From assembly GCA_030272155.1 (NCBI GenBank), contig CP126193.1, positions 6,262,001-6,326,000 of the forward strand: a stretch of 64,000 nucleotides of DNA, read 5' to 3'. The notes below the pieces were generated by a model. It was given only the letters and a program-made list of their open reading frames with translations. It had not been told where the DNA came from and did not search any database. This DNA is from Tetradesmus obliquus (lineage: Eukaryota; Chlorophyta; Chlorophyceae; Sphaeropleales; Scenedesmaceae). Below, one piece after another: positions 1 to 64,000 of the stretch (position 1 is its first letter; every line of letters starts with the position of its first letter). Position numbers and translations under genes: made by a program.

Positions 1-3000
1 TGTTCCCCAGCATTGTTGGCCGTCCCCGCCACACTGGTGTGATGGTTGGCATGGGCCAGAAGGTAAGCTATGCTGCTTTAGCAATGCAGGACATCCCTGG
101 CACCATCCAAGCAGCAGCTCCTGCAGCAGCTTGCGCTGGTCAACTGTATGCAGCTACCTGCATGGCAGTTGCTGTTGAGCGCAGCAGTACTGCTGCTGTA
201 CAGCTGGCGCAGCACCTGCCGCGCATGCACATTGGAGCGACCCTGCAGGCCTTGATCCGGCATGTGTTCACTTGCAGGACTGCTATGTGGGCGATGAGGC
301 CCAGTCAAAGAGGGGTATCCTGTCCCTGCGCTACCCTATTGAGCACGGTATTGTGACCAACTGGGATGACATGGAGAAGATCTGGCACCACACCTTCTAC
401 AACGAGCTGCGCGTGGCTCCAGAGGTGTGCGGCGGCTGCTTCGCTTTTGCATCACGGCATCACAACATCAACAACAGCAGGATATACTCGCAGCAGAGCA
501 ACAGCAAGGGAACAGTGCCTTGATCACGGAAGGGGTGTACAAGGGGTGCCAGCAAGCAGCGCGCGACAGCGGGCCTTGACAGAACAGCCTGCATCGTCGA
601 CCTCAACTCCTCGTCACGCAATAAACTCATCACACATACAGGCTTGGACTACTGCGCGCACACGCAGCTGTCAGCTGGCGCATCATGCCTGCTCTTGTTC
701 ATTTGTTGTTGTGTCTCTTGTGGTGTTTTGTGCTGCGGCTTTGCAGGAGCACCCCGTGCTGCTGACAGAGGCGCCGCTGAACCCCAAGGCCAACAGGGAG
801 AAGATGACTCAGATCATGTTTGAGACCTTCAACGCGCCAGCCATCTACGTGGCAATCCAGGTGCGCGCCGCGCAGGGCAGGGGAGGCCGGCGGTTGTGAT
901 GCAGCCGTGGTTCGCGGCTATATGATGGTACAGCAGGCAGCGAAGGAGCGGGCAGAAGAAAATGGGCGGTTGGCAATCGACGCACTTGCAGGGCAAAGCA
1001 ACGGCCTGGTCAAAGCAGCATCCGCAGTCTGGCCGTCTGAGCACAGCAACAGGCTGCTGCAGGACATGGCGTGCACCTACTGTGTGTGCAAGGGGAGCAA
1101 GCATACCACAGCGTTGCGAGCGGTTGAGTTGCCCTAGTGTTGACGGTGGCACTGCATGTTGCATGAAAGCAGTCCAGATGTAAGCAGTCTACAAACAGCG
1201 AGTGTGTGACGCCAACCTGCCGCCGCACTGCTGCTGTACTGAAGTTATGCCACACTGCTGCTGCATTAAACACAGGCTGTGCTGTCTCTGTATGCCAGCG
1301 GCCGCACCACTGGTATGGTGCTGCTGTCAGATGATCATTGCACTGCAACCTCACTCATCCACTGCTTCAATCTGCTGTTTTATGCAAAACGCAGGCCGTG
1401 CTGTCTCTGTATGCCAGCGGCCGCACCACCGGTATCGTGCTGGACTCCGGTGACGGTGTCACGCACACCGTGCCCATCTACGAGGGCTATGCGCTGCCGC
1501 ACGCCATCCTGCGCCTGGACCTGGCCGGCCGCGACCTCACAGACTGGCTGATGAAGATCCTCATGGGTGCGTGGATGAGTGGCAATCGCTGGGTGTGGTG
1601 TTAATCTTGTGGTCTTTGAGAAATGCTTGAAAAGGAGGCTGCAAGGCAATCTTGGTAGTGTTGCAGCGTTGCGTCGAAGGGGTGGGGGTTTGGGGCGCAG
1701 CTGCTGTTGCCTATGTATTAGGGCCATCTGCGCCTGGACTTGGCTGCCCTATTCCTCACAGACTGGCTGATGAATATCCTCATGGGTGCGTAGCAGCAGA
1801 GGGTTTGGTTGCCTGGGGTTCATTTGGATCGAGAGGGCTTCCTGTGGGGAGCAGCGGGCAGCCAGGCAGCAGCGGTGGGGCGCAGTTGATCAGCAGCACG
1901 TGGTGGTTCAACGCAACATAGATGGACAATGCTGTGCAATGCCTTCTATTTGCCCTGCTACTTGGTAGCCCACGTTATCAACCTCCTCTCATACATTCTT
2001 ACCTGCAGAGCGCGGCTACAGCTTCACCACCACTGCGGAGCGTGAGATTGTGCGCGACATCAAGGAGAAGCTGGCCTACGTGGCGCTGGACTACGAGCAG
2101 GAGATGGCCACATCCATGAGCAGCAGCGCCCTGGAGAAGAACTATGAGCTGCCCGACGGCCAGGTGCGCTGCTGTGGTGGCGGGTTGATGTGTGTTGTAA
2201 CTTGTGCGTATGGCAGTGTGGGTGTGTGCAGCCAGACTGCTGCTGCGATCCATGTATGTTAATGGCAAGCTGTTGGCTGGAGTACCACAGCTTGCTAGCA
2301 GGTGGCGGGGCCCTTAGAGTGCGTTGCCTGAGTCCTGGCACGAGGCTGCCTTGCTTTACTCTCGTCCGCACACATACATCATGCTGACCTCACCCCCCAA
2401 ATCACCCCTGCATTGCTCAACCTGCTTTAACAAACCACCGGCCATCACCATCGGCAACGAGCGCCTCCGCTGCCCCAAGGTGCTGTTCAGCCCCACACAC
2501 CCTCGGTGCCATTTAAAAACTCACCTCGCTCCTGCCGCATCGCATTCACAAACTCCTGACAGGTCATCACCATCGGCAACGAGCGCTTCCGCTGCCCCGA
2601 GGTGCTGTTCAGCCCCAGCATGGTGGGCATGGAGGCCAACGGCATCCACGACACCACCTTCAACTCCATCATGAAGTGCGACGTGGACATCCGCAAGGAT
2701 CTCTACTCCAACATCGTGCTGTCCGGCGGAACCACCATGTTCCCCGGCATCGCGGACCGCATGAGCAAGGAGATCACCGCGCTGGCGCCAAGCGCCATGA
2801 AGATCAAGGTGGTGGCCCCACCGGTGAGTGCCGCATCTCCTTTTATTACTGATATGGTTACGCCACCTGTGTTGTGGCAGTACCAAGTGTACTTTGCAAT
2901 GCAAGCCAGTGGTTCGCCTGGTTGCTGGCAGGCTGATGCGGATGCGGTTTGAAGCATGTGTGCTGCTGGCACAGGAGTGAACATAGCAGTGTGGGCAAGC

Positions 3001-3262
3001 AGCAGCGGCAGGCACGGGTGCGTGTCACCCAGCGTACGACAGCCTACGTCCATCATCACCCCGCGCTATGATCCATGTCATTCTCACCGCTACTGTTGCT
3101 GCTGCTTTGCCAATTACTACCTCATATTTGCAGGAGCGCAAGTACTCCGTCTGGATCGGTGGCTCCATCCTGGCCAGCCTGAGCACCTTCCAGCAAATGT
3201 GGATCGCCAAGTCCGAGTACGACGAGAGCGGCCCATCCATCGTGCACCGCAAGTGCTTCTAA
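1..3262 (+). CDS. ACT: Actin, 5'-truncated by the window edge
   Basis: Conventional actin, the ATP-binding subunit of microfilaments. Exons by splice site and phase: 1-62, 278-424, 747-860, 1395-1566, 2009-2163, 2563-2823, 3134-3262, about 346 codons, so only roughly the first 30 residues are missing. The sequence opens at [20 protein letters not shown] and contains [17 protein letters not shown], the second phosphate loop [46 protein letters not shown] and the terminal [11 protein letters not shown]. The family's usual DSYVGDEA is DCYVGDEA here. Three introns hold partial copies of neighbouring exons. A TGTAA at 4116-4120 could be the polyadenylation signal, which would give a long 3' UTR of about 850 nt. 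Identity is certain; the exact paralogue is not. Confidence 0.98.
1276..2494 (+). repeat. Exon echoes in actin introns
   Basis: Three diverged exon copies lie inside actin introns. 1276-1323 copies the start of the exon at 1395, with its own CAG acceptor, offset 119. About 1727-1786 copies the end of the exon that finishes at 1566, with its GT donor, offset 220. 2441-2494 copies the start of the exon at 2563, offset 122. They are noncoding in the actin model because only the listed exons keep the actin frame. Confidence 0.9.
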
Positions 3263-62900: not shown

Positions 62901-64000
62901 GAGGTGGCCGCCGCCGCCGCTGCGTGGCCTTGTCAGGTGGCCTGCAGGCAAAGTACGCACTGTCCACTGCATTTGTCTGCCTGCTGTCCAGGTTGCGCGC
63001 GTTGCGCAGCCGCATCATGACGCCCAGCAGGTTCTCCATGCGGACCTTGGACTCTGCGGCAGCAGCAGCAGCAGTGTCAACGGTGAGCCCGCTGACATCA
63101 TGGAGCATCATGAGGCTCAGCAGGTTCTCCATGCGGACCTTGGATTCTGCAGTAAAGAATGAAGAAACAACGGCAGCGATGGCAGCAGAAATGGCAATAC
63201 TATTACTACAACGGCATCATGACGCCCAGCAGGTTCTCCATGAGGACCTTGGACTCTGCAAAAGTAACAGCAGCAGCAGCAGCAGCAGCACCAACAGCAG
63301 CAACATCGGGAGCTTGAACGGCACGTTCAAATTTGTAGACAACTAAATTCATCAACGCTAGTGTTGCTGACAGCCAAACTAGACACCTAATCCAGGACGT
63401 CCCAAACCTTGCGCACAACGGCAGCAGAATAACAACAGCAGCAGGAAGCCGTGCTGTAGTGTGTAGCCTGCCTCACCCGGCAGCCGCAGCAGGAAGCGCC
63501 CCGCATTCTCCACCAGGGTGGCAGCAGCCTCCAAAGCAGGCCCACTGAAGTCGTCCAACCAGCATCACCGCCCCATCCAGCATTCCACGCATCTGATAGC
63601 ACATGCAACATGTGACTTACCATTGTCGCCCTTCCGGACACAGCACACACACCATACAACAGCGAAGCACACAGTATACAGCAGACACCACGTCACACCC
63701 CTGGTACAAATCACATAATGCCTCTCACCCGGCAGCCGCAGCAGGAAGCGTCCCGCATTCTCCACCAGCGTAGCGGCAGCGTCCACGGCAGCCCACTGAA
63801 GTCGTCCAGCAGCGCCACACTCCGAAAGTCAACATACGAAGCCCTCATACGGCGCATCTGGCTAAAAAACACCCGCCAAGCGTGCCAGAACACAGCACGC
63901 ACACTACAGACACATCAGACAGCAAAAGCACTTTTACCAAACCCATGTAACTCAACTCACCCGGCAGCCGCAGCAGGAAGCGCCCTGCATTCTCCACCAG
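56970..64000 (-). CDS. UPF2: UPF2 nonsense-mediated decay factor, 3' part
   Basis: Scaffold that bridges UPF1 and UPF3 on mRNAs with early stop codons. Exons in transcript order: 64000-63961 (cut by the edge), 63053-62896, 61913-61791, 61515-61400, 60289-60191, 59662-59560, 59117-58977, 58746-58411, 58148-57897, 57299-56970, about 565 codons, all phases closing. Order and motifs match UPF2 from the second MIF4G domain onward: VENAGRFLLRLP, RMENLLGVMM, SAYFACRPPDK...RRRRPPLQEYIRHLL, KLPWGQAEPYLLKCLLK, VGLVDLVLEDVR, RLAQVRLLGEAYNYMLLDS, LDPPDDFFRIRLVIALLSTCG and LDRFLTFMQAYV. An acidic linker (EPIEEEESDEEEE) follows, then the UPF1-binding tail (TLKLLMKKGGKDDRSRELH, EREQIKALVLEANLRDEAE). The 5' part lies beyond the window. 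Confidence 0.94.
57360..59235 (-). repeat. Exon echoes in UPF2 introns, 3' group
   Basis: Two copies of the start of exon 57299 begin at 57400 (offset 101, acceptor intact) and about 57514 (acceptor CAG changed to CAA). One copy of the start of exon 59117 begins at 59235 (offset 118, acceptor intact). Confidence 0.92.
59909..61247 (-). repeat. Exon echoes in UPF2 introns, middle group
   Basis: The end of exon 61515-61400 (VGLVDLVLEDVR plus GTGAGC donor) recurs at about 61247-61197, 61013-60962 and 60783-60735, and intron text between them is also duplicated. The end of exon 60289-60191 recurs near 59950-59909, and its start near 60424-60383. Confidence 0.9.
61984..62279 (-). repeat. Three acceptor-side copies of a UPF2 exon
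   Basis: Copies of the start of exon 61913 (EYIRHLLFEVLGDGSI) begin at 62036, 62163 and 62279, in steps of 123, 127 and 116 bp. The first two keep the CAG acceptor and near-perfect coding text; the last has lost bases. Confidence 0.93.
62472..63786 (-). repeat. Exon echoes in UPF2 introns, 5' group
   Basis: Copies of the end of exon 63053-62896 (RRRRPPLQ plus GTGA donor) lie at about 62853-62766, 62650-62620 and 62505-62472. Copies of its start (SKVRMENLL) lie at about 63147-63110 and 63256-63212. Copies of the upstream exon end (LVENAGRFLLRLP plus donor) lie at about 63786-63729, after a frameshift, and 63537-63479, in frame. Confidence 0.9.
62856..62885. repeat. Interstitial telomere-like CCCTAAA run
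   Basis: ACCTAAACCCCAAACCCTAAACCCTAAACC contains two perfect and two imperfect CCCTAAA units. It lies in a UPF2 intron, exactly between an exon echo and the real exon end. TTTAGGG is the plant-type telomere repeat. Confidence 0.85.

Follow-up and report, generated by a model that had tools for sequence, protein, structure and literature searches.

Many introns of the green alga Tetradesmus obliquus carry decayed extra copies of the edge of a neighbouring exon, splice site included. We looked at these copies, hereafter called echoes, in a stretch of 64,000 nucleotides (contig CP126193.1 of assembly GCA_030272155.1, positions 6,262,001 to 6,326,000). This whole stretch is referred to as the window, and coordinates are counted from its first base. 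In total, 33 exon-end copies were found in the introns adjoining their source exons in five genes: 23 in the genes for actin, an M20 peptidase, YchF and a BABAM1-like protein, and 10 in the UPF2 gene.

Exon-end copies lie in the adjoining introns with a fixed polarity

For the repeat scan, the window was compared with itself in 10-kb pieces, pairs consisting of more than 35% triplet run were excluded, and pairs whose starts lay at most 1 kb apart were taken as one cluster. We observed 56 direct local pairs in 30 clusters and no inverted pair under the same filter, which excluded an inverted self-match at 10820-11244 (59%) seen in the self-comparison. No pair was obtained from shuffled sequence (two dinucleotide shuffles of each of the six window pieces and of each of 20 other loci described below). 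Coding-based picks of exons served for finding candidates only. Each exon of actin, M20 and YchF was then aligned with its neighbouring introns (46 tests), a test being passed when the score exceeded those of all 60 shuffles with z above 5. Fifteen of the 46 tests were passed, against none of the same 46 with the intron reverse-complemented, where the highest z was 4.5. Among the 23 introns of these three genes, 11 contain copies and no copy was detected in the other 12.

The position of the copies is strikingly regular. In the four modelled genes (actin, M20, YchF and BABAM1-like), copies of exon 5' ends lie upstream of their source and copies of 3' ends downstream in 23 of 23 cases. All 11 upstream copies start at exon base 1 to 8, and all 12 downstream copies end at the final or last-but-one exon base. 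UPF2 follows the same polarity (10/10), one copy starting at base 9 of its coding piece and one spanning the whole piece. The copies diverge from their sources by 3-34%, a few being 94-97% identical, and 22 of the 23 are clearly truncated; the exception, in M20 after exon 9, covers bases 7-101 of 101 at 66% identity. These results bear out the claim of a preliminary description of the window that splice-site-bearing copies of exon ends fill the adjoining introns. That description had counted more than 40 copies in seven genes, of which 33 in five genes are verified; our gene models do not extend to the other two, a sushi-module and a BRO1 gene.

Gene models and positions of the copies

The labels actin, BABAM1-like and sushi-module come from reading of the sequence. 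On the plus strand, the 3' part of the actin gene was modelled on its own reading:

3-62, 278-424, 747-860, 1395-1566, 2009-2163, 2563-2823, 3134-3259, plus: actin gene, 3' part, seven exons, spliced model
1276..1362, plus: exon 4 5'-end echo, AG present
1723..1785, plus: exon 4 3'-end echo, GT present
2443..2495, plus: exon 6 5'-end echo, acceptor AG lost

The M20 peptidase gene was modelled against P0121, to which 486 of 517 positions of the model are identical (the M20 query has 91% identity to P0121):

4667..9611, plus: M20 peptidase gene, 10 exons, spliced model
6354..6419, plus: exon 5 5'-end echo
7869..7977, plus: exon 7 3'-end echo with GT
8098..8193, plus: exon 8 5'-end echo
8934..8963, plus: exon 9 3'-end echo 1
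9059..9091, plus: exon 9 3'-end echo 2
9123..9215, plus: exon 9 echo 3, near-whole exon, 66% identity, score barely above threshold

The exon 7 echo has a core of 83 bases (7900-7982 against 7642-7724) that is 95% identical and sits inside a longer match of lower identity; it is separated from its source by a 175-base spacer, to which nothing corresponds behind the echo.

In YchF the splicing is that of P0002, a sequence with the source label 'lgn' that we take to be assembled from sequencing reads. We interpret it as a spliced transcript, since a contig of at most 1,695 bases that holds all nine exons must be intronless. P0002 (429 aa) maps on nine exons separated by GT-AG introns, 425 of its 429 residues falling on whole codons of identical meaning and the others on codons that are split, and its mapping includes no echo sequence. 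The YchF query is 94% identical to P0001, from T. obliquus and probably from another strain.

14510..20182, plus: YchF gene, nine exons, spliced model, splicing as in P0002
16061..16102, plus: exon 4 5'-end echo
16361..16411, plus: exon 4 3'-end echo
16586..16653, plus: exon 5 5'-end echo 1
16704..16784, plus: exon 5 5'-end echo 2
17018..17080, plus: exon 5 3'-end echo
17978..18101, plus: exon 7 3'-end echo
18378..18489, plus: exon 8 5'-end echo 1
18630..18745, plus: exon 8 5'-end echo 2
19203..19300, plus: exon 8 3'-end echo
19469..19558, plus: exon 9 5'-end echo 1
19715..19805, plus: exon 9 5'-end echo 2

Both echoes upstream of exon 9 (19469-19952) read CAG|GTGAG, an acceptor joined to a donor in the manner of recursive splicing, where the true exon has CAG|GCGAG.

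On the minus strand, the partial BABAM1-like model was guided by parts of P0241 and P0247 (347/491 identical). Its intron holds a 241-bp tandem array, in whose units an older, shorter echo appears nested by eye. No usable microhomology was seen by eye at the breakpoints of this array, the only one inspected for it.

10352..12870, minus: BABAM1-like gene, partial model, exons 12870-12235 and 11245-10352, intron of 989 bp
11747..12343, minus: 241-bp tandem array, 2.5 copies, 96% matches, made of exon 3' end, donor and intron
11994..12102, minus: exon 3'-end echo 1
11753..11861, minus: exon 3'-end echo 2
11645..11692, minus: exon 3'-end echo 3

An array of a 62-bp unit (about 6.8 copies, 13438-13858) lies upstream of the modelled BABAM1-like exons.

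The coding pieces of UPF2 were bounded by peptide. They match UPF2 structures with an E value of 1.5e-24 over query residues 42-225 and are colinear with them from the piece at 61913 onward; the match does not cover piece 62986-63054, which two of the 10 UPF2 copies adjoin.

58974..63054, minus: UPF2 gene, coding pieces
63209..63256, minus: copy upstream of piece 62986-63054
63076..63147, minus: whole-piece copy upstream of piece 62986-63054
62231..62279, minus: echo upstream of piece 61779-61913, CAG
62107..62163, minus: echo upstream of piece 61779-61913, CAG
61964..62036, minus: echo upstream of piece 61779-61913, CAG
61198..61252, minus: echo downstream of piece 61402-61506
60961..61051, minus: echo downstream of piece 61402-61506
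60738..60790, minus: echo downstream of piece 61402-61506
60372..60422, minus: echo upstream of piece 60196-60300, from piece base 9
59916..60005, minus: echo downstream of piece 60196-60300

The copies decay, and introns that contain them are longer

Fifteen echo-source pairs gave 123 differences, distributed as 35, 32 and 56 over codon positions 1, 2 and 3. Of these, 52 are synonymous (0.42); the share expected is 0.294 under random change and, by calculation, about 0.45 when the source is constrained and the echo free. The observed share fits free decay of the echo since the last exchange with its source. In the upstream echo of actin exon 4, 4 of 15 differences are synonymous.

Splice dinucleotides were found intact in 22 of the 23 copies, with GT after all 12 downstream copies and AG before 10 of the 11 upstream ones (the exception is actin exon 6). 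When compared with the expectation from pairwise divergence, this is a nominal excess (22 against 17.6, P 0.013), which is gone when only the echo branch is allowed to change (22 against 20.0, P 0.18, with an assumed factor of 0.55); selection for intact sites was therefore rejected.

In actin, M20 and YchF, introns with an echo have a median length of 516 bp (n=11) and those without one of 274 bp (n=12; p 2.5e-4). A published table gives a mean intron of 462 bp for T. obliquus, against 230 for Raphidocelis, 302 for Monoraphidium, 284 for Chromochloris and 270 for Chlamydomonas (PMC5966456). Echoes may account for the longer introns of T. obliquus relative to these other green algae.

Echoes are present elsewhere in the genome and in relatives

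To sample the genome, 20 loci of 10 kb on 12 contigs were chosen before viewing. Local direct pairs were detected in 13 of the 20 (80 pairs, 32 clusters), with 8 inverted pairs in 6 clusters, so that such repeats are not confined to the window. The window, with 30 clusters in 64 kb against 32 in the 200 kb sampled, is about three times denser and therefore overstates the genome average. The translations of L019, L020, L025 and L026 repeat the same peptides, by eye, several of them beside splice-like sites. CTG/CAG repeats were considered as a driver and rejected, as they are not enriched around clusters (28/62, null 35.9 +- 3.4).

Independently of the genes chosen in the preliminary description, three protein families were searched in the genome, and matches were grouped within 6 kb. 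The 149 matches listed fall into 22 groups of at least two and 3 singles, with overlapping extra matches in 10 of the 22 groups. Among the matches listed, 17 overlap pairs have the expected polarity, 1 the unexpected, 10 share both ends and 9 are of other kinds, several pairs coming from one gene. A pair with the expected polarity occurs in five groups (C12, C16, C17, C10 and C13), those of C17 being weak and one of them 3 kb apart. The echo arrangement is present in chaperonin and tRNA-synthetase genes on other contigs. At the nucleotide level, the exon at L029 aligns with three copies on its acceptor side and four on its donor side, the alignment of the fourth of these not clearly extending across the GT; the exon at L030 aligns with two copies, both on the acceptor side. 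For aldehyde dehydrogenase no overlap was found in 4 multi-match groups, where only 13 matches were scored. Taken with the unrelated genes on both strands of the window, these results support the earlier proposal that echoes are a property of the genome rather than of a gene family.

Two other assemblies hold comparable copies. P0241, an open frame on a metagenome contig of a relative, continues past the BABAM1-like donor and contains the end of the exon plus the start of the intron a second time (VSSNVVTFL, then VSLNVVTFL). As this repeat holds intron sequence at the protein level, the recent event there included the intron. P0242-P0246 have no such repeat in the few dozen residues past the donor, where a copy in another frame would escape. 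In P0001, annotated as YchF in another T. obliquus strain, the start of exon 8 occurs twice, and the 19-residue in-frame duplicate matches an exon 8 echo. Other gene predictions in the group may hold echo-derived exons.

The sushi-module gene (23000-39000) has many diverged direct copies, part of them more than 1 kb apart, suggestive of the same tendency acting on whole exons.

Origin of the copies

The account that we favour, and to which we give about an even chance, is that echoes descend from old small duplications across one splice site, the exon part of which was later refreshed by exchange with the constrained exon. The initial unit would span a single splice site. A unit made of intron end, AG and exon start would leave a truncated copy of that start upstream, ahead of the intact exon, and a unit made of exon end, GT and intron start would leave a truncated exon end downstream; the polarity rule noticed in the preliminary description is explained, since a unit across one acceptor or donor must leave just these remnants. 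Splicing would stay with the innermost acceptor and the first donor, so that the mRNA would be unchanged and the intron alone would grow. Later exchange between the two, by unequal crossing-over or gene conversion of echo and exon, would add further copies and refresh their exon part. As the constrained exon would stay alike while the unconstrained intron flanks would drift, homology would come to end at the splice site. Here we infer the first duplication event, the exchange, neutrality and, outside YchF, the choice of splice site.

Several results weigh against this account. A duplication across a splice site should carry intron sequence with it, and a flank was detectable in only 9 of 23 copies (5/11 upstream, 4/12 downstream) by a local test against shuffles, two of the nine positives being at p 0.010. 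Alignment anchored at the splice site and compared with unrelated flanks gave 6 of 23 (4/11 upstream, 2/12 downstream). Divergence on the echo branch is estimated at 0.087 substitutions per site (71 nonsynonymous differences over 1,151 aligned sites). Flanks simulated with this divergence were recovered in 55 of 66 draws on the upstream side and in 71 of 72 on the downstream side (49/66 and 65/72 at 0.15; 18/66 and 36/72 at 0.25). A test of such power that finds so few flanks indicates that homology ends at the splice site in most copies, or that the flank is of much greater age than the exon part would suggest. A number of the flanks are short (26-34 bp) or enter CTG repeats, which weakens single cases and not the total. 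The outermost copies of arrays can be without matching flank (BABAM1-like 11753-11861, YchF 18378-18489), and by eye the outermost flank of the first chaperonin copy of L029 is likewise unmatched. Few duplications of comparable unit length are confined to introns: the four genes have a single one, at 15663-15902, seen in the self-comparison and missing from the listing that filters triplet runs. Two further intron pairs in BABAM1-like were labelled intron-only by script, yet lie within the nested array; arrays of short units do occur in introns, for example at 5154-5225 and 19832-19919. Simulated neutral duplication gives an expected echo share of 0.50-0.77, below that observed. Repeats at the 20 loci show no significant preference for predicted coding segments (49 of 80 pairs, null 43.8 +- 5.8). 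Some YchF echoes differ from their source nearly only synonymously (exon 8 downstream 5/5, exon 5 upstream 9/11), which could reflect constraint. Finally, gene conversion, itself an inferred step, is needed to rescue the duplication model.

The account as a whole is supported by the fixed polarity, the direct orientation of the copies, the intron sequence repeated in P0241, the share of synonymous differences, the greater length of echo-bearing introns, the echo-free mapping of P0002 and the pairs found in the family searches. Three features favour exchange in particular. Stretches repeated with their spacers occur in three genes: ahead of exons 5, 8 and 9 in YchF, behind exon 9 in M20, and within the intron of the BABAM1-like gene. 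Similar spacers within arrays together with unmatched outermost flanks are what unequal exchange would give. The 95% core of the M20 exon 7 echo within a weaker match looks like a refreshed patch. The scarcity of intron-only duplications points the same way, since nothing would refresh those.

Alternatively, a process coupled to splicing or transcription, such as RNA- or R-loop-templated repair, could insert the exon edge into the adjoining intron, copying being anchored at the splice junction. We regard this as possible, though rather improbable, and we know of no mechanism of this kind. It would explain why homology does not usually continue beyond the splice site (a flank in 6 or 9 of 23 copies, where duplication would leave one in most), why all 23 copies reach the proximal exon edge within 8 bases and why intron-only duplications are scarce. 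In contrast, the presence of GT in 12/12 downstream and AG in 10/11 upstream copies means that at least the dinucleotide was copied too. Flank is present in several copies, and in P0241 the repeat extends into the intron. A wider version, which we hold just as tentatively, is that copies are junction-ended by origin and not by decay, and that introns behave as a ratchet in which splice-competent exon edges accumulate, tolerated through pairing of splice sites across the exon (the innermost acceptor with the first donor), and so outgrow the introns of related algae. If sites were paired across the intron, nearer near-identical acceptors would cause mis-splicing and be purged; the survival of intact rivals points to pairing across the exon, under which echoes would be nearly cost-free. 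Survivorship favours the same pattern of intact sites.

Plain tandem duplication across one splice site, with uniform neutral decay thereafter, appears unlikely for the set as a whole. The copies do have the direct orientation and the polarity of such duplications, and a few have the intron flank. The 241-bp BABAM1-like array has this form, and lenient alignments, made with no control, are near-contiguous, with gaps of at most 32 bp in 9 of 13 analysable pairs (2 of 15 aligned with themselves and were dropped). Because the flank test fails for most copies despite its high power, we do not file the echoes as plain tandem duplications; for the youngest copies this explanation may hold.

Two further explanations seem to us quite unlikely, and to a similar degree. 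The first is short-range templated insertion during break repair, as suggested by the 95% core of the M20 exon 7 echo and the 175-base spacer before it, which has no counterpart behind the echo. Such insertion should occur in either orientation and from any part of the exon, whereas none of 46 reverse tests was passed and the proximal edge was included in 23 of 23 copies. The second is that selection keeps echoes as alternative or decoy splice sites. The P 0.013 for intact AG/GT, the use of one echo as an in-frame exon in the P0001 annotation and the few copies with mostly synonymous differences speak for it, and the overall fit to free decay, the P 0.18 against the echo-branch expectation and the fact that P0002 uses none speak against it. 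Assembly stutter or collapsed haplotypes can practically be dismissed: a few copies are near their source (94-97%), but divergence ranges over 3-34% and independent assemblies hold such copies (P0241 and P0001).

Comparison with known systems

In tandem whole-exon duplication, exon sequence is duplicated directly inside a gene. Echoes have this direct duplication in common with it and are mostly truncated edges. Introner elements are many related intron sequences within one algal genome; echoes too are many related intron sequences, and differ in that each, compared within its own gene, resembles its own neighbouring exon.

Tandem genomic duplication is an accepted route of intron gain, and a review sets out a model in which AGGT is duplicated (PMC3443670). 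The likeness is that small intragenic duplications are tolerated through splicing. In that model an exonic AGGT is duplicated and gives a new intron, whereas here an existing splice site is spanned and an existing intron becomes longer. In the potato RdRp gene, a tandem duplication that spans an intron-exon boundary contributed extra exon sequence and gave rise to a new intron via an activated GT (Ma, Lan and Niu 2016, PMC4974935). That is a single case with a new intron; in T. obliquus many genes are concerned, donor-side copies occur too, and most copies are without detectable flank. Unlike the potato case, the YchF copies are spliced out within one longer intron, and gain of an intron with exon added to the mRNA did not take place in YchF, where P0002 has nine exons without echo. 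A comparable density of exon-edge copies is not reported in the open-licence literature searched, judged mostly by titles and abstract openings, and the word 'intron' is absent from the available passages of three papers (PMC12571836, PMC7590803, PMC7955037).

Echoes function like remnants of tandem duplications, and what appears new is their density and the stop at the splice site. They would offer a route to intron growth that is free of transposons. The arrays are natural experiments on the choice of splice sites, as several near-identical acceptors or donors adjoin one another and, in YchF, a single one is used. To judge from P0001, echoes can also lead gene prediction astray. How they arise is a sharp and testable puzzle, given that homology usually stops at the splice site. 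Should new copies prove to end at the junction from the outset, they would call for a copying mechanism linked to splicing or transcription.

CTG tracts near acceptors

A run of (CTG)4 or longer lies within the last 60 nt of 6 of the 23 introns of actin, M20 and YchF. P0122, the M20 protein of Scenedesmus sp. NREL 46B-D3, has a leucine run immediately ahead of the matching exon. A CTG tract near the M20 acceptor may thus be common to both algae and annotated as exon in P0122.

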